This document shows positions 6,957 to 31,744 of a DNA stretch of 35,053 bases, piece by piece. The notes below the pieces were generated by a model. It ran no database searches. It was not told the origin of the DNA and worked only from the letters and a program-made list of their open reading frames with translations. Numbering within the stretch: the stretch's first letter is position 1; every line of letters starts with the position of its first letter. Made by a program: the position numbers and the translations under genes. The stretch lies in IMG/VR virus record IMGVR_UViG_3300043395_000563, positions 1 to 35,053 of that record; one strand, given 5' to 3'. The stretch is from a virus.

Positions 6957-7529
6957 ATGACAATCTATACTGGACGCTGGGAACAACTACCCCCAAACCC
7001 ACGCTACCCCGATCAGGAGCCTACTGCGTATGTAAAAACAGACGCCGGTACAGCTAACGACATAAGAGAGACACTCAATACTTGGTGCGAGTTCTTGGCA
7101 ACAATCGCATTTAGCCAAGCAGACCAGGTCAAATACGACAACCCCCGACTAACAAAAAGCCAAGCGCAAAAAGCAGGTTGGGCCACGGTAGATGCCGCAA
7201 TAAGACTCAACTGCGACGACCCAGATACACCTGTCGGCAACGACCCGCAAGTCTATACAACAGAGCAAATCGTAAAGTTTTGCTTACGAGAACTAAAGGC
7301 TCGTCAAAAAAACGGCAAACTAAAAGATGTAAAAAAATCAATCATCGATCGACATAACTGGCAAGTAGTACATATCGCATACACGAGATTCAACATAGAG
7401 TCAGCCGCAGATATCACAGACGAGCTACTGGACTGGATCGACGCCAGGACCATCGACATACAACGAGACGCACCACTACCTCTAACAGCGAGCCAACGCA
7501 GACTCGGCTCAATCTTTGAGGGCCTATAA
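6957..7529 (+). CDS. Unknown early protein upstream of the mini-polymerase
   Basis: A 190-aa protein with a strong ribosome site (AAAAGGAG) and its own promoter. It is soluble, with no membrane segment. The sequence has an alpha-helical central part (ETLNTWCEFLATIAFSQADQ, KFCLRELKARQKNGKLKDV) and no motif I recognise. Its stop overlaps the next start by one base (TAATG), and the third gene of the set encodes the polymerase-like protein, so the three are almost certainly one operon. A role in DNA replication or in early takeover is therefore an inference from context alone. Confidence 0.7.
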   Translation: MTIYTGRWEQLPPNPRYPDQEPTAYVKTDAGTANDIRETLNTWCEFLATIAFSQADQVKYDNPRLTKSQAQKAGWATVDAAIRLNCDDPDTPVGNDPQVYTTEQIVKFCLRELKARQKNGKLKDVKKSIIDRHNWQVVHIAYTRFNIESAADITDELLDWIDARTIDIQRDAPLPLTASQRRLGSIFEGL

Positions 7530-7717
7530 TGTTAAACGACATCTCTCGAGACATCAATGATGGCATTCGTCAAGCGAGAAGCCGTCGTCCCTCTACTCTG
7601 ACCATTTATAAGTGGCAACAGGAGTATATCGCCACTGAAGCAGATCGTCGTATGACTTTCTATCAATACAAACAAAGCCGACTACGCGAATACTACGGTA
7701 AGAAAAGGAGTCGTTGA
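7529..7717 (+). CDS. Small basic protein of unknown function
   Basis: A 62-aa protein, highly basic (many Arg/Lys, ending GKKRSR) and with aromatic residues (YKWQQEY, MTFYQYKQ). Translation is coupled to both neighbours: the start overlaps the previous stop by one base, and the stop shares a base with the next ATG. The charge suggests nucleic-acid binding, for example as an accessory of the polymerase-like protein, but no fold is recognised. Confidence 0.6.
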   Translation: MLNDISRDINDGIRQARSRRPSTLTIYKWQQEYIATEADRRMTFYQYKQSRLREYYGKKRSR

Positions 7718-8778
7718 TGAACTACGAGCCCAACTACAATGATCCACGAGTCCAGACTCGTATTTCTCGAGCCATCAACTTCTGCGAGAAGTATCTCAAC
7801 GAGACCACAACTCAATGGCTCTCTACGAGATGGATAGATCATCGAGATAACTTCGGGTGTTCTAAAAATCAACTAAGCCGGTATCTTCGCGAGACATTAT
7901 TGATCGTAGCAGATGACTCATTTAATAGATTTACGGGTAAGACCAAAACATATAGGTTAAACCTCAACGGGTTAAATCAACTACGAGCCCGTCTTCGTGT
8001 AATACAACAAACAACATATAGTGTAGTACATCTCGATAATCGGCTACAAAATGAGCTCAAATCAGGCGATTTCGAGTATAAAGAGTCATCATCACGACTC
8101 TATCACCCACTACAAAACTTCAAGCGAGCGGCAAAGCACGAAGTCCTGGCCCAAGCCGGCTATCTATACAACTACGATATAGAATGTGCCGCACCAACAC
8201 TACTACATCAATACGCACAGCAGTTGGGAATGGACGAGTATCTATTCACACTACGCCGGTACATCAACGACAGAGCCGCAATAAGAGCCCAAATAGCACT
8301 GGAAGCAGAAGTGCCAGAACGCACAATCAAGCGTATCATCAACGGGTTATTTCAAGGAGCACATATATCTACTCATAGCACTACTATCGCATATCAGGAG
8401 CTCAACGGAGATCCTGCTAAGATAGAGTTCTTAAAGCAACACGAGTTCATAACAGCACTACGAGCCGACATAAAGACTTTGTGGGAATACATTCGTCCTC
8501 AACTGAGTCGTAGGACTCGAGTAGATAAAAATGGTCATACACGAACACTACCCATTTCTGGTAAGCAAAAGACTGCTTTATATAGAGATTTAGAGAGAGT
8601 CGTGTTGTCGAGTGTTAGAGAGTATCTCGACGAGACCAATAACCAATATTTCTTGGAGCACGATGGTTGGGCTACTCAACGAGAAGTAGATACAACTGCT
8701 CTCATCGAGCACATTCAAATCTCAACGGGATACGAGATCAAAATAGATTCTTCTTGTAATACAACAAACAACATATAG
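7717..8778 (+). CDS. Minimal family A-like polymerase (T7 RNAP/Pol I palm motifs)
   Basis: A 353-aa protein; the ATG at 7717 is preferred over the TTG three bases earlier because AAAAGGAG ends six bases upstream. Three motifs are seen. Motif A is LYNYDIECAAPTL with Asp154. Motif B is RTIKRIINGLFQG with Lys205; it aligns with the Pol I KAINFGLIYG and T7 RNA polymerase KRSVMTLAYG segments, with Gln in place of the conserved Tyr. Motif C is FLEHDGWAT with Asp316. Spacings (51 and 111 residues) are close to those I recall for E. coli Pol I (53 and 124). There is no exonuclease domain; the first 140 residues are unknown. It could be a DNA polymerase, RNA polymerase or primer-making enzyme. The C terminus runs into a direct repeat that supplies the stop codon. 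Confidence 0.6.
   Translation: MNYEPNYNDPRVQTRISRAINFCEKYLNETTTQWLSTRWIDHRDNFGCSKNQLSRYLRETLLIVADDSFNRFTGKTKTYRLNLNGLNQLRARLRVIQQTTYSVVHLDNRLQNELKSGDFEYKESSSRLYHPLQNFKRAAKHEVLAQAGYLYNYDIECAAPTLLHQYAQQLGMDEYLFTLRRYINDRAAIRAQIALEAEVPERTIKRIINGLFQGAHISTHSTTIAYQELNGDPAKIEFLKQHEFITALRADIKTLWEYIRPQLSRRTRVDKNGHTRTLPISGKQKTALYRDLERVVLSSVREYLDETNNQYFLEHDGWATQREVDTTALIEHIQISTGYEIKIDSSCNTTNNI
7998..8035. repeat. 38-bp direct repeat, copy 1 (inside polymerase gene)
   Basis: Identical over 38 bases to 8755-8792, 757 bp away. This copy codes for residues about 94-106 of the polymerase-like protein. It contains the 17-bp motif TATAGTGTAGTACATCT (8017-8033), which also occurs elsewhere in the genome. Confidence 0.95.
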
Positions 8779-8792
8779 TGTAGTACATCTCG
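8755..8792. repeat. 38-bp direct repeat, copy 2 (end of polymerase gene)
   Basis: Second copy of the repeat at 7998-8035, read in another frame so that it supplies the last codons and the TAG stop of the polymerase-like gene, then continues 14 bases past it. It contains the 17-bp motif at 8774-8790 and is followed by the palindrome TAGTAGATCTACTA (8801-8814). Confidence 0.95.
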
Positions 8793-8800
8793 TAAAACGA

Positions 8801-13750: not shown

Positions 13751-16396
13751 ATGCCACAACAAATCAAACGCTCTTATTCAGAAGCACGAGTAGATCTAAG
13801 TAAGATGACATTCACGCCCGATGTCCCATCAGCAGCCTTGGGCGCAAACGAATACAACTACGGTAAGAATGTAGAAACCGATGTAAGAGGTATTCGATCA
13901 ATATCCGGCGACGACCCAGCCAGCTCGAGCACACCTGGCATCCCAACTTATGTGTCAGGCGGCTTTAGACAACCAGTAGGCGATGAAGTCAATAACTTCT
14001 TCTTTATCACAGCCAATCAAGACGGTAAGTGGTGGTGCTGGAACGGTTATTTCTGGGAAGATATTAGCCCGGTACAGCCTACCGGCAGTTATACACAAGC
14101 ACAAAATATATCAGAAGGATGGTCAGGCACCGTTCCTGTGTTTAACGACGAACAAAACCCACCAATGTTCTGGCCCGAAGACTCAACACGCAAAAGTATA
14201 ACAATCACTGGAGCAAGTGGCAATGGCACATCAGCAACTCTTACATTTGCGGCACAATCAGTAGCACCTTGGAAGGTCGGGGACACCATTGTAGTCAAAG
14301 GTATCTTACCAGCCACATATCAAGGTATCCATACGGTCTCTGCTTGTAATACAACTTCAGTGTCCTGGTTAAGTTCGGCAACAGGCTCACAAATACAAAC
14401 TGGCCTGGTCAGTAGCCCACAGCCTAAGATGAAGATGTATTCAAATATCGTTCCTATCGACATTTACGATATCACACAGCCAACCGTAGATACAAGAGAA
14501 ATCACATTCTATGGCGTAGCTGAATCAACAGGCTCTACCATCGTTGGCACAACACTAACCATCGGCGCACTACCAGTAGGCACACTCGAGCCTGGTATGT
14601 TCTTACAAGGTACTGGCTTTACTCCTGGTACAAAGATCATTGGCAACATAGCAGGAGCCGGAGCTGGTTCTACCTGGACGGTCAATATCCCACAAACCAG
14701 CTCCGGCGACTGGGACTTTACACGCTGGCAAGGCACACCATTCGTAGTAGGCGAAACCGTAGCACTAAGCAATGTTCAACCACGCTACTACAACGGCACT
14801 TGGGAAGTGGTAGCATCAGACTACTACTACGCAACCATCAAGTGTTCAGTATCAGACGCTTACTCTAAAGGTGGTACAATCGCTTCTGAATATACTTGGA
14901 ACTGGAACCCAGACTGGAGTTCAGTATATGCCAAGTGGCTTCGCATTTACAACACGCCCAATGTGGGCTCAATCTTAGTAGCCGGTAATCTTGTAGCAAC
15001 CAACGCAGTATCAGACGATATCGAAAACTATCCAGTGACTGCTCAATGGAGCCAATCGTTCGGTCTCAATCAGATGCCATCAACTTGGACACCAACGGTG
15101 ACCAACATCGCCAACCAACTTGAAGTACCACTACGCGGAGAATCACTTGACGCCTTTCCTTGTAATGGCAACTTGTTCTTGTGCTCATATTGGGACACGG
15201 TGGTATTCAGTCCTCTCAACTACGCTACAACTAATACACCAATCTTGGGCGTAAGACTATTCAACCAGGGACGAGGCTTACTATCAAGCAACTGCTGGGC
15301 CAATACAGACCAAAAGGTATATGGAGTAGATGCTCGAGACATTTGGGTATTCGACGGCAACTCATTTCAAAGTCTCGGCAACCAGCGTGTTAAAAACTGG
15401 TTCTACGAACAAATCGACGAGCAGTATTATAATCGTATCTTTATGGAGGTCAATACAGCCAAGAACCAAATCGAGATTTACTATCCAGACTTGTCAGCCA
15501 CAGATGGCGTACCAAATAAGATGCTGAGTTATCGTTATGACTTAGACTGCTGGAACGCACCACGCGATGTAGATAGCGCAACATTCGCTTGCGAAGCACC
15601 GCGCTGGACAACAGATAAGATCTTCCTGGCTCAAACACCTATAGCAACTTCAGGTTCAGGTGTGGGCGCAGTAGTAGATATCAAACGCACATTTCAAGAC
15701 TACTATCTACCCGATGGCATTTATAGTATCATCAATGGCGGCTCTGGCTACGCACACAACGATACAATAACATTCTCGGGACAAGTCCTGGGTGGCACAA
15801 CACCAGCCAATGATTGTGTAGCAACGGTAGGGGAAGTAGATGTCAATGGTAAAATCTTAACAATCAAAGGCAACTCAACTGGAGCAATCGGTGGCACACC
15901 AGCAAAGATCTGGAGTTATGACAACGCAAGTCGTTGCGTCGTATATGCTCGTGGTTTCAATGGTCGCACACTACTACAAAAAGATATTGGCTTCGACTTC
16001 GCAAGTGGCGCACTAAACGCCGCTATCCCAATCGAGTCATCATTCCGCAAAGACAACATCAAGTTCTCAAGAGACTACTCAGACAAAGTCTTAGTACATC
16101 GTATCTTACCCGAAGTAGTCAATCTAAACAAACAGCTACTACAGATTGATCCAATAACCGAATACTATCGCATTGGCAATATTGACATTACCTTAGGTGG
16201 TGCCAACTCAGTAGGTCAAGCACCAGTAGAAAATACAACAGCAACGGTATCGACCAATACAGATGATCCTTGGGTACAGATCGCACAAAACGCTCACCGA
16301 GTGAATACATTAGAAGTCAGTACAACACAGGACCGCACAACCTGGATGCTGACAGCACTAACAGCACAAATCACACAAACGGAAGATGACAGATAA
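13751..16396 (+). CDS. Tail nozzle/stabilisation protein (P22 gp10 / T7 gp12-like) with inserted modules
   Basis: An 881-aa protein. The start (EYNYGKNVETDVRGIRSISGD) and later stretches (AFPCNGNLFLCSYWDTVVFS; DARDIWVFDGNSFQSLGNQR; NQIEIYYPD; SYRYDLDCWNAP) follow the repeated-blade pattern of podovirus tail tubular B or stabilisation proteins, which form the tip of the DNA channel. Residues about 149-222, 251-320 and 328-380 are three inserted beta-modules: the first and third resemble modules in the fibre and 16396 genes, the second has the widespread TLEPGMFLQGTGFTPGT pattern. It is the first gene of the late unit after a terminator and promoter motif. Confidence 0.7.
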   Translation: MPQQIKRSYSEARVDLSKMTFTPDVPSAALGANEYNYGKNVETDVRGIRSISGDDPASSSTPGIPTYVSGGFRQPVGDEVNNFFFITANQDGKWWCWNGYFWEDISPVQPTGSYTQAQNISEGWSGTVPVFNDEQNPPMFWPEDSTRKSITITGASGNGTSATLTFAAQSVAPWKVGDTIVVKGILPATYQGIHTVSACNTTSVSWLSSATGSQIQTGLVSSPQPKMKMYSNIVPIDIYDITQPTVDTREITFYGVAESTGSTIVGTTLTIGALPVGTLEPGMFLQGTGFTPGTKIIGNIAGAGAGSTWTVNIPQTSSGDWDFTRWQGTPFVVGETVALSNVQPRYYNGTWEVVASDYYYATIKCSVSDAYSKGGTIASEYTWNWNPDWSSVYAKWLRIYNTPNVGSILVAGNLVATNAVSDDIENYPVTAQWSQSFGLNQMPSTWTPTVTNIANQLEVPLRGESLDAFPCNGNLFLCSYWDTVVFSPLNYATTNTPILGVRLFNQGRGLLSSNCWANTDQKVYGVDARDIWVFDGNSFQSLGNQRVKNWFYEQIDEQYYNRIFMEVNTAKNQIEIYYPDLSATDGVPNKMLSYRYDLDCWNAPRDVDSATFACEAPRWTTDKIFLAQTPIATSGSGVGAVVDIKRTFQDYYLPDGIYSIINGGSGYAHNDTITFSGQVLGGTTPANDCVATVGEVDVNGKILTIKGNSTGAIGGTPAKIWSYDNASRCVVYARGFNGRTLLQKDIGFDFASGALNAAIPIESSFRKDNIKFSRDYSDKVLVHRILPEVVNLNKQLLQIDPITEYYRIGNIDITLGGANSVGQAPVENTTATVSTNTDDPWVQIAQNAHRVNTLEVSTTQDRTTWMLTALTAQITQTEDDR

Positions 16397-17311: not shown

Positions 17312-18319
17312 ATGAACGGAATAGAAACAATCAAACAGGTGTTCCCACCAGAACTACTAAAACGCATTCAAGAAGAAGTTGGCCGAGTGCCATTTCATTA
17401 TGGATGGCATTCAAATCGAGGCATCGAATATACTCACTGGAACTACTCATTCGCAAAAGCAGGAGCAGACAACAGCTTGGATGTATCAGATCAGATCTCG
17501 GGAGTGATCAAAGAAGCTTGGGACTATCTACAAGCAAATCATATTGGCCCACAAGCACTACTACGCTGTTATGTCAATGCTCACACATATGGTATCGAAG
17601 GCTATCCACATACAGATTCAAGTAGGGCATTAGATAAAACCATATTGGTATATCTTACACCCAACTGGCAAATCAACTGGGGCGGAGAAACCGTAGTGTA
17701 TAAAGATGGAGACATCTTACACGCCGAACTACCACGAGAAAATAAAGGGCTAATCTTCCCAGGAGCACAACTACATTGTGCTCGCGCAGTGACCCGCATC
17801 TGTCCAGCACTACGACTAACACTAATGTTCAAATACGCACCTATAGGCTACGACACAACAAGAGACAATATACAACGACTATTGGTAGCAATGGGCACAC
17901 ACAAAACAAAGCACTCTAAAAATAACTTAAAGGGCCACTTACTACGCACATACGATCGATTGCGAGCAAAGGGCTATTCAACAACTATCTGTGCCGCCGG
18001 AGCACTACACTCTATCTTTGGCACTAACGCATTTAAAACAGCAACTTTAGGTCCAGAAGCAAGAGAACCATTGGTAAAGATGGTAGGAGAAGAAGTAGTA
18101 CGCTTGGTAGAACTATTTCGAGATATCAAAAGACCCAGCACATTAGAAAACGCATTAGCAAAGAAAACGCTTACGGTAGAGACTAACTCAGGCTCCACAA
18201 TCGAGCTTACACCGGATCAACTAAATAGTTTATGCGCTATAGAAGCCGCAAATCTGCTTGACCAGAACGCAAACCTGGCAAAGTATCCGCATTTAAGCCG
18301 CATAATGCCACAAGGATAA
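17312..18319 (+). CDS. 2OG-Fe(II) oxygenase fused to a DUF6817/HD-like domain
   Basis: A 335-aa protein with a strong ribosome site (AAAGGAGT). Residues 20-175 are a prolyl-4-hydroxylase-like 2-oxoglutarate/iron oxygenase: the iron ligands are H100, D102 (PHTDSS) and H155 (QLHCAR), and R168 is the expected 2-oxoglutarate ligand (RLTLMFK). Residues 195-270 (HSKNNLKGHLLRTYDRLRAKG, AALHSIFGTNAF, GEEVVRLVELF) match the DUF6817 pattern, a histidine-rich HD-like fold. The protein could hydroxylate a phage or host protein, or a nucleic acid. It sits among virion genes, so modification of a structural protein is possible. Confidence 0.75.
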   Translation: MNGIETIKQVFPPELLKRIQEEVGRVPFHYGWHSNRGIEYTHWNYSFAKAGADNSLDVSDQISGVIKEAWDYLQANHIGPQALLRCYVNAHTYGIEGYPHTDSSRALDKTILVYLTPNWQINWGGETVVYKDGDILHAELPRENKGLIFPGAQLHCARAVTRICPALRLTLMFKYAPIGYDTTRDNIQRLLVAMGTHKTKHSKNNLKGHLLRTYDRLRAKGYSTTICAAGALHSIFGTNAFKTATLGPEAREPLVKMVGEEVVRLVELFRDIKRPSTLENALAKKTLTVETNSGSTIELTPDQLNSLCAIEAANLLDQNANLAKYPHLSRIMPQG

Positions 18320-18322
18320 TCA

Positions 18323-19639
18323 ATGAAGAAAAACAAAAACAACTCTAAAATGATTGACTTTAGTCAGTTATCAGACAAGGAGTTAAAAGAGTTAGCCCGA
18401 CACTTAGAATCATTGGGCCACGGAGAAGACACCGTATTAGCACACATTCGTCCAGACGAAGCCGAACTACTTAAAAAGCGTGGTGGTTCAGGCGCTATCA
18501 ACCCCGACACCGGTTTAGTATCATTCGACGGTGATGGAGGTGGTGGTGATGGAGGTGGTGGCGACGGCGGAGGCGGAGATGGAGGTGGTGGCGACGGCGG
18601 AGCAGGTGATGGCGGAGCAGGTGATGGCGGAGCAGGTGATGGCGGAGACGCAGGCGGAGACGCAGGCGGAGACGCAGGTGGCGATACTGGCGACACAGGT
18701 GATACAGGTGATACTGGTGATACTGGCGATACTGGTGATGATGCCGCAGACACTGGAGACGATACTGGAGACGATACTGGTGATGACGCAGCCGATGACG
18801 CAGCCGATGACGCAGCCGATGACGCAGCCGATGACGCAGATGACGCAGCCGATGACGCAGATGACGCAGCCGATGACGCAGATGACGCAGATGACGCAGA
18901 TGACGCAGATGACGCAGATGACGCAGATGACGCAGATGACGCAGATGACGCTGATGACGCCGATGATGCTGATGATGCTGATGATGCTGATGATGCTGAT
19001 GATGCTGATGACGACACTGGAGATGGTGGAGGAGACGGCGGAGGTGGTGATGGAGGTGGTGGCGATGGTACAGGACCAACAGGCCCTACGGGACCAACAG
19101 GCCCTACACCAGGCACACCAACGGGACCAATGGCACCAAAGTTTGGCTTAAACCCATTCTACTATCAGCCTAAAGCCGCGTATAATACAACAGACCCAGC
19201 ACAAAGCAAGTTCTACTGGGGACCACACGGACAGCAATCAAGTAATACGCAGTTCAGTTCAGCAGAATGGAATGCCGGAGCACCACAGCAGGCCTGGGGT
19301 ATTCAAGAAAGTGCTAAACCACTAACAGCAACAGAGCTACAAAATGTAATGGCGGGATATAGCTGGGGACAACCACAACAACCACAACAGCCAGTATTCA
19401 ATCCACAACCACAGCCAATCCCACAACCAATGCCAGAACAACCAGGTGGATTCCCACCACCAAGTTTCGGAGGAGGTGGAGGTAAGATAGGTGGCGGCCC
19501 AGCACAACCAATCTTTGGACCAGTACCATTCGCCTCACAAGTAGCTGGACCAGCAGTACCAGGACAACTACCAATGAACACAATGGGGCAACCTCAACTA
19601 AACGACTTAGTTCAACAGCTACTAAGAGGCATCAGATAA
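18323..19639 (+). CDS. Asp/Gly/Ala low-complexity virion protein with GGSG-INP-TGL motif
   Basis: A 438-aa protein. Residues 25-70 carry DTVLAHIRPDEAELLKKRGG and SGAINPDTGLV, a motif often found near the N terminus of phage internal virion or ejection proteins. Residues about 70-255 are a pure low-complexity block: GDGGGG repeats, GDTGDTG, then DDA-type repeats. The C-terminal third is Pro/Gln/Gly-rich. The strongly acidic block might bind cations or keep the protein unfolded for ejection; that is speculation. It follows the oxygenase gene by 3 bases (AAGGAT ribosome site). Confidence 0.7.
   Translation: MKKNKNNSKMIDFSQLSDKELKELARHLESLGHGEDTVLAHIRPDEAELLKKRGGSGAINPDTGLVSFDGDGGGGDGGGGDGGGGDGGGGDGGAGDGGAGDGGAGDGGDAGGDAGGDAGGDTGDTGDTGDTGDTGDTGDDAADTGDDTGDDTGDDAADDAADDAADDAADDADDAADDADDAADDADDADDADDADDADDADDADDADDADDADDADDADDADDADDADDDTGDGGGDGGGGDGGGGDGTGPTGPTGPTGPTPGTPTGPMAPKFGLNPFYYQPKAAYNTTDPAQSKFYWGPHGQQSSNTQFSSAEWNAGAPQQAWGIQESAKPLTATELQNVMAGYSWGQPQQPQQPVFNPQPQPIPQPMPEQPGGFPPPSFGGGGGKIGGGPAQPIFGPVPFASQVAGPAVPGQLPMNTMGQPQLNDLVQQLLRGIR
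18531..19074 (+). repeat. Tandem repeats encoding Gly/Asp/Ala
   Basis: The DNA is built of short units: GGTGGTGATGGA-like 12-mers, GGCGGAGCAGGTGAT, GATACTGGC, then GATGACGCA and GATGCTGAT 6- and 9-mers. The uniform third-base pattern (runs of GACGCAGAT, then GATGCTGAT) indicates recent unit duplication. Length polymorphism is likely and assembly collapse is possible. Confidence 0.9.
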
Positions 19640-24154: not shown

Positions 24155-24664
24155 ATGATGAACTTCGAAGATTTAATGAGTATGGCATCAGAAGAAAAAG
24201 ATGAAGCCAAAGAAACACGCACAAAAGTAAGTGAAACAGCCGACACGCTACTACAGATATTCAACAATAACTTCGTAGCGTACTATAGAAGCCATGTAGC
24301 ACATGTCAATATCGTCGGTAGAAACTTCTACAGCGATCACAAACTACTGGGAGGTGTATATGAAGACCTACAAGGTCAGATTGACACTATCGCAGAACTA
24401 CTACGCACACTACAATCAGAAATGCCAGCAGATTTAACTGGCGTATTAGAACGCAGTGAAATCGACTCAACAGAACTGGCCGGCGACGCTGACTTTCTGT
24501 TGTCAATGGTAGAAGAAGATTTAGAATACTTGGTTGGCAACTATCGTGATTTAATCAATGTAGCAACAGCCGAAGGTCAAGATCATATCGCCAACTACGC
24601 TCAAGACCGTATTACTACATTAGAAAAGTCGATCTGGATGATCAACTCGACGCTTGGGGTTTAA
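24155..24664 (+). CDS. Dps/ferritin-like protein
   Basis: A 169-aa helical protein (CAGGAGA upstream). The stretch HVAHVNIVGRNFYSDHKLL (residues 47-65) with QIDTIAE (75-81) aligns with the ferroxidase region of Dps: H50, H62, D77 and E81 match the E. coli residues H51, H63, D78 and E82 with the same spacings, while the D67 position is Gly66. Dps proteins form 12-mers that oxidise iron with peroxide and can bind DNA. Here it may guard DNA during infection or be a virion part. The usual Trp after the first His is Val, and some helical structural proteins share such patterns, so the fold is likely and activity unproven. Confidence 0.65.
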   Translation: MMNFEDLMSMASEEKDEAKETRTKVSETADTLLQIFNNNFVAYYRSHVAHVNIVGRNFYSDHKLLGGVYEDLQGQIDTIAELLRTLQSEMPADLTGVLERSEIDSTELAGDADFLLSMVEEDLEYLVGNYRDLINVATAEGQDHIANYAQDRITTLEKSIWMINSTLGV

Positions 24665-31703: not shown

Positions 31704-31710
31704 CTATTAC

Positions 31711-31727
31711 CATAGTGTAGTAGATCT
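31711..31727 (+). promoter_or_regulatory. 17-bp motif copy upstream of the 31745 gene
   Basis: CATAGTGTAGTAGATCT matches TATAGTGTAGTACATCT (8017-8033 and 8774-8790) at 15 of 17 bases and, reversed, the early promoter at 6895-6911. It lies 17 bases before the 31745 start. Confidence 0.55.
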
Positions 31728-31744
31728 TTTGGAAAGGAAACGAA

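Follow-up and report, generated by a model that had tools for sequence, protein, structure and literature searches.

A predicted minimal superfamily A polymerase of small aquatic phages, and the paired DNA sites within and at the end of its gene

A 353-codon gene in a small phage encodes what its predicted fold and its profile alignments identify as a minimal, exonuclease-free polymerase of superfamily A, close to the published TV-Pol and divPolA2 groups. We favor the view that this protein, here called POL, is a phage replication primase-polymerase, and that the repeated DNA sites found in and behind its gene are most likely cognate recognition sites (for origin function or priming); we put the probability of this reading at about 0.55. 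The sites were absent from an earlier reading of the same DNA made from the sequence alone, and may be the most novel part of the locus. The DNA analyzed, which we call the window, is a 35,053-base IMG/VR virus record, and the phages that carry POL are an uncultured group from freshwater and the sea.

POL begins with an ATG codon that has GGAG upstream of it, and its start overlaps the stop codon of the preceding 62-aa ORF in the sequence TGATG. Its GC and GC3 contents resemble those of neighboring genes, and comparison of close relatives gives a dN/dS of ~0.16. The three palm motifs that the sequence-only reading had described are located where it placed them–D154 in YDIECAAPTL, K205 in RTIKRIINGLFQG, and D316 in LEHDGWAT–and the spacings it gave, 51 and 111 residues, are correct; the values for E. 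coli Pol I are 53 (residues 705 to 758) and 124 (758 to 882). The gene and its motifs are as follows.

7717–8778, plus strand: POL, 353 aa, gene for a predicted minimal polymerase of superfamily A (from the ORF, homologs, AlphaFold2 and PDB matches)
8095–8097, plus strand: R127, a beta-hairpin residue (SRLYHPLQN) paired with Klenow R668 (TGRLSS...NLQN); invariant in 46/46 homologs, hhalign register
8176–8178, plus strand: D154, predicted metal ligand of motif A, paired with Klenow D705; invariant, hhalign register
8329–8331, plus strand: K205, fingers motif B, aligned with Klenow K758; invariant, hhalign register
8659–8667, plus strand: H315-D316-G317, motif C with the predicted second metal ligand; H and D invariant, G in 45/46

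Searches of Pfam, NCBIfam, PHROGs and PDB sequences with the single POL sequence gave no meaningful match. A four-member POL profile matched 56 IMG/VR loci with sequence identities of 28–61% (three sister phages had been identified earlier, via terminase). Residues R127, Q133, Y153, D154, R190, K205, G214, W256, Y289, E293, H315 and D316 never vary among the 46–48 homologs that were aligned (29–61% identity), and because D154, K205, H315 and D316 are invariant across such divergent proteins, in a gene with low dN/dS, the motifs are not a product of chance. More distant relatives occur in Desulfovibrio phage 7757 (22% identity) and on Polaromonas plasmids. The POL family profile matches the plasmid homologs with an E-value of 4e-19, and these match gp030 of Microcystis phage Ma-LMM01, which is linked to POL through the plasmid protein. 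Genome contigs scanned with two alignments yielded no bacterial relative, and viral sequences scanned with the plasmid pair yielded none either, the short peptide patterns limiting the reach of these scans. A "Clp N-terminal" annotation of the plasmid protein was set aside as a weak, sub-threshold match.

The AlphaFold2 model of POL, built from 46 sequences, has a mean pLDDT of 90.5 and a single disordered loop at residues 98–102 (pLDDT <50). Its best PDB matches by Foldseek are T7 DNA polymerase (E = 1.9e-5), Pol I, and polymerases theta and nu, with mitochondrial RNA polymerases ranking lower. VIA-align superimposes POL on T7 gp5 over 226 residues (Z 12.7, rmsd 3.9) and all its top-ranking entries are Pol A enzymes, so that the palm and fingers of Pol A are present in the predicted fold. 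The top matches among viral models (BFVD) are uncharacterized phage proteins and virophage replication proteins. The hairpin around R127 consists of strands 122–124 and 127–129 in the model, and it is preceded by helices at 83–96 and 108–116, which we compare with the two-helix antiparallel thumb of TV-Pol.

Profile–profile alignment with hhalign leads to the same class, pairing R127, LQN, D154 and K205 with R668, LQN, D705 and K758 of Klenow, in register with Klenow/Taq-type enzymes. The E-value against E. coli Pol I is 0.013 for the POL family alone and 0.0011 when the plasmid and Desulfovibrio members are included (five column-shuffled controls gave 0.36–0.92), and the family matches the divPolA2 profile with an E-value of 5.5e-5 over 279 columns. 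The Pfam DNA_pol_A profile does not match POL. Because the profile alignment stops short of motif C, the assignment of D316 relies on its invariant HD(G) context and on where it lies in the model, and the catalytic residues are superimposed by way of the fold match together with the profile alignment. Fold and register, the two checks that the sequence-only reading had named, both support its proposal that POL is a divergent, minimal polymerase of the family A type, and a family B-like reading of its motifs was dropped after these results.

Both palm Asp residues, the motif B Lys, and the hairpin Arg with LQN are all present in POL. Other residues of the Pol I active site have been replaced. 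The position of Klenow Glu710, the steric gate, is Ala in 41/46 homologs. At the position of the nucleotide-selecting Tyr766 the window has Gln, as the sequence-only reading had said, and the 46 homologs never have Tyr (16 Ala, 12 Cys, 7 Gln, 5 Ser, 5 Asn and 1 Thr). No conserved Arg corresponds to Arg754 of the O-helix in these 46 proteins. The RxxxK of the TV-Pol fingers is also missing, the residue four before K205 being P, E, V, T or others, and the conserved fingers Asp of TV-Pol has no constant counterpart (D185 is present in only 20/46), R190 being invariant instead. The loss of several nucleotide-selection residues could mean that POL is a catalytically dead palm protein retained for DNA binding. 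We regard this as very improbable, given that both metal-binding Asp residues, the motif B Lys and the hairpin Arg are invariant down to ~30% identity. With the steric gate missing, a chain-starting or ribonucleotide-tolerant enzyme would fit.

The small size of POL and its lack of an exonuclease, which the sequence-only reading had emphasized, stand, but they do not make it unique, because TV-Pol, SCCmec CCPol and divPolA2 have been published as similar proteins. For TV-Pol, whose family counts Sputnik V13 and a Ma-LMM01 (Microcystis phage) protein among its members, the displacement of prim-pol led to the prediction of a primase-polymerase role (Iyer et al. 2008, PMC2579912). Like TV-Pol, POL is a nuclease-free minimal Pol A core with a hairpin Arg, two palm Asp residues and a fingers Lys, and both occur in small mobile elements or viruses where they displace prim-pol. 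POL lacks RxxxK, and the window has no D5 helicase to go with it; POL also differs in its size (~350 aa versus 400–600 aa) and in the weakness of its direct profile match to the LMM01 protein (E = 2.5e-4). The divPolA2 proteins of barbaviruses and Vibrio phages, for which the choice between a repair DNA polymerase and an RNA polymerase was left open (Yutin et al. 2024, PMC11348598), likewise have a Pol A palm and fingers, no exonuclease, and an unusual N-terminal domain. They are found in phages of 80–137 kb, in barbaviruses beside a regular PolB (PMC11348598), whereas POL is the only polymerase found in phages of ~35 kb and is accompanied by paired DNA sites. Priming by CCPol of SCCmec takes place when the OB-fold protein MP is bound to it (PMC7581432, PMC10061031). 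POL resembles the CCPol-MP/PolA-SSB primases in its small, exonuclease-free Pol A core, in its proposed part in replicating a mobile element, and in having a small predicted OB-fold protein nearby in 8 loci; for those primases, too, a recognition site on the element is known. In the window, however, neither an OB-fold partner nor a helicase gene was found. With T7 gp5 and Pol I, its best match among solved structures (Z 12.7), POL has motifs 1, A, B (Lys) and C in common, but it lacks the 3'-5' exonuclease, has little thumb, and has lost the equivalents of Glu710 and Tyr766.

The genomic position of POL bears on its role. Phages with closely related terminases share a slot between a tail-fibre/holin/HTH block and the tail gene at 13751. 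This slot contains POL in the window and two relatives (G017, G021); in sister phages (terminase 81–85% identical) it contains instead an archaeo-eukaryotic-type (AEP) primase with an SF3 helicase (five: G007, G009, G015, G018, G020) or an AAA ATPase (two: G012, G013). In three genomes (G034, G036, G040) POL is located elsewhere. Mutual exclusion is seen only between POL and the primase-helicase, since G034 combines POL with an AAA protein. SF3 helicase families (DUF5906, VapE) were found in 6/20 POL-less sister records versus 0/39 records with POL, a difference with a hypergeometric P of ~0.0009 that is uncorrected for relatedness or incomplete records. No helicase, primase or SSB was recognized in the window; this, the absence of RxxxK and the different location of POL in G034, G036 and G040 count against the replication reading that we favor.

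Canonical PolA or PolB was not found in any of the small (~35-kb) POL phages searched, and larger phages that have POL relatives do have one: PolB in Desulfovibrio phage 7757 and PolA in Ma-LMM01. The extra polymerase in these large phages, like divPolA2 as an extra enzyme in barbaviruses (PMC11348598), would be consistent with POL being an accessory or repair DNA polymerase that is dispensable for replication, as proposed for divPolA2. We consider this unlikely for the ~35-kb phages, where POL is the only polymerase-like gene found and where it replaces a primase-helicase module in the slot.

The genes on either side of POL in the window are listed here.

6957–7529, plus strand: 190-aa protein with the C-terminus LGSIFEGL; a homolog lies directly upstream of POL in locus L090
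7529–7717, plus strand: 62-aa basic ORF overlapping the POL start; a homolog lies upstream of POL in locus L121
8939–10489, plus strand: ParB-like protein fused to a DNA methyltransferase, downstream of POL (Pfam PF02195, PF01555)

The 62-aa ORF is a possible coupled partner of POL. The 190-aa protein has weaker BLAST similarity to ORFs upstream of POL in L138/L144, and is not specific to POL because it is found in the POL-less sister G013 too. We rejected the idea of a universal small partner, since the upstream ORFs split into several groups with no single family among them. Eight POL loci contain a 118–147 aa protein with a predicted OB fold (pLDDT 85.1), and this family was not found in the window; its top structural matches are mostly SSB and RPA domains, at a Z-score of only 6.3 that is not conclusive alone. 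Members of this SSB-like family (~129 aa) near POL include L099:11103-11492 and L109:1657-2046, along with six other loci. In addition, a 126-aa ORF that looks OB/SSB-like by eye lies 45 bp upstream of a Polaromonas plasmid polymerase (L086:5669-6049).

Several other features of these genomes were seen. Unrelated small proteins with the C-terminal tail [FY]xxLF make up 18/944 ORFs in POL loci versus 0/281 in POL-less sisters (P = 0.02, for a pattern picked post hoc). Such proteins, and one methyltransferase, lie within 2 kb of POL in L091, L095, L099, L109, L111, L130 and others; the tail resembles a clamp-binding or SSB-tip motif, and the 190-aa protein of the window ends in LGSIFEGL. The phrog_16521 family (82–157 aa) occurs within 5.4 kb of POL in 18 loci (L093, L095, L099, L101 and others). 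Elsewhere in the window there is a ferritin/Dps-like gene (24155–24664; PF00210, E = 7.8e-15) that is conserved in sister phages, a DUF6817 domain fused to a 2OG-Fe(II) oxygenase (17312–18319), and, within a conserved protein of the virion region (18323–19639), a long low-complexity stretch rich in Asp, Ala and Gly.

The POL gene also contains one copy of a 51-nt direct repeat whose second copy, 92% identical, spans its stop codon. The copies of this site in the window are as follows.

7992–8042, plus strand: site copy 1, in the stretch of POL encoding the disordered linker (codons ~92–107); HMM match 8007–8038
8749–8799, plus strand: site copy 2, spanning the POL stop codon; HMM match 8764–8796
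31706–31734, plus strand: third site copy, in the gap that separates the portal gene from the following one; of the type of the POL 3' copy in sister phage G024

A direct repeat with a matched score of at least 20 is present in 22/48 POL loci, mostly at the same two positions; no such repeat turned up in shuffled sequence or in six control genes, and we rejected chance as the origin of the pairs. The site covers roughly 22–40 bp and most copies have the dyad TGTANTACA in their core. An HMM built from 43 copies finds the site at both positions in 18/48 POL loci and at least once in 26/48 (E below 0.05), counts that are partly circular because the HMM seeds were picked at these two places; 22/48 loci have no recognizable site, a point against the reading of the sites as cognate to POL. 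Significant matches are always on the POL strand, and there were none in eight POL-less sister genomes. As an independent test, an exact scan of IMG/VR for the core CCCTAGTGTANTACAAGTC returned nine contigs, seven of which encode POL. One further contig (L210) is cut at its end and starts at a POL-type 3' copy with the same sequence as the one in L212; another (L204) has neither POL nor a second copy, and its match looks like chance. The window's own variant of the site, used as an exact query, matched no further contig. In L207 the linker seems to carry two tandem versions of the site (5675–5600, minus strand; SYPSVLQV ... SISVLQV), which suggests iterons.

Site copies are 80% identical within a genome versus 55% between genomes (permutation P < 1e-4); judged by these identities, they coevolve within genomes. 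POL itself is exchanged between phages, because the window and G024 have terminases that are ~96% identical and POL proteins that are only ~40% identical. The third copy in the window reads as a leftover of an exchanged G024-type POL; at this position after the portal gene, POL-less sisters L006–L012 have no site. These observations raise the question of whether the pairs are simply recombination boundaries that contribute nothing to the work of the polymerase, being either linkers for gene swapping or recombinase sites. The sites do flank the catalytic half of POL and are homogenized within each genome, and POL is exchanged. The internal copy is in the linker rather than at the 5' end, however, so that a swap would exchange only part of the protein; moreover, no site is kept in the eight POL-less sister genomes and no recombinase was recognized near POL in the window. 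We therefore judge this explanation to be somewhat unlikely.

The other role to be weighed is that of promoters. The 3' copy of the site often directly precedes a ribosome-binding site, so a promoter or RNA signal is also compatible with its position, and the third copy in the window likewise precedes a ribosome-binding site, ahead of the scaffold/capsid genes. POL could then be a single-subunit phage RNA polymerase of the T7/N4 type, with the repeated sites as its promoters; the fold class is common to T7 and mitochondrial RNA polymerases, albeit with weaker structure matches, and the Ala of POL at the Glu710 position corresponds to Gly in T7 RNA polymerase. Several results make this quite unlikely. 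The POL profile matches T7-type RNA polymerases at noise level (E = 0.2–0.3) versus 0.001 for PolA, and the motif B Tyr equivalent to Tyr639 of T7-like RNA polymerases is absent from POL and its homologs. There are just 2–3 sites per genome, one of them inside POL, and the slot that POL occupies is one it shares with a primase-helicase. No intergenic 17-mer is shared among POL phages above the level of shuffled sequences (in-gene copies of the site not included), in a test that recovered the T7 promoter in 7/8 cases as a positive control; the POL-linked sites are the only ones that recur. The swap with a primase-helicase and the absence of intergenic promoter repeats make a replication enzyme that primes the better reading, and a transcriptase like that of T7 the poorer one. 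The suggestion of "a missing replicase or transcriptase" thus survives in its first half, with gene context pointing to replication or priming and speaking against its second half.

In the replication mechanism that we propose, D154 and D316 would carry out two-metal nucleotidyl transfer, and K205 and R127 would keep the incoming nucleotide and the template in place. POL would prime and copy the phage genome, standing in for the AEP primase and SF3 helicase of sister phages, and its products would presumably be passed to the host replisome. By analogy with the lambda origin inside gene O, the 22–40 bp sites would travel with the POL gene. Origins inside replication genes are known from lambda O, P1 repL and N15 repA. 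The likeness to the lambda O type is that a replication gene has a repeated site in its linker, which moves with the gene; the differences are that the POL product is a polymerase, that a second copy of the site is at the 3' end, and that the origin is putative. A more far-reaching version, which we hold only tentatively, is that POL and its sites form a self-contained cassette: an A-family primase-polymerase that recognizes iteron-like sites in its own linker and 3' end, is exchanged between phages as enzyme plus origin, and replaces the AEP primase-helicase module.

The POL family, about 50 phage loci, joins the smallest Pol A-type enzymes known, and it is seen to take the place of a primase-helicase module among phages that are otherwise close relatives. 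The priming predicted for TV-Pol in 2008 becomes directly testable in a protein of 353 residues, for which the embedded, coevolving pair of sites–apparently new–is a ready candidate template or origin in an assay. If this is confirmed, gene and origin would here form a single unit with a polymerase at its core, an unusual arrangement.
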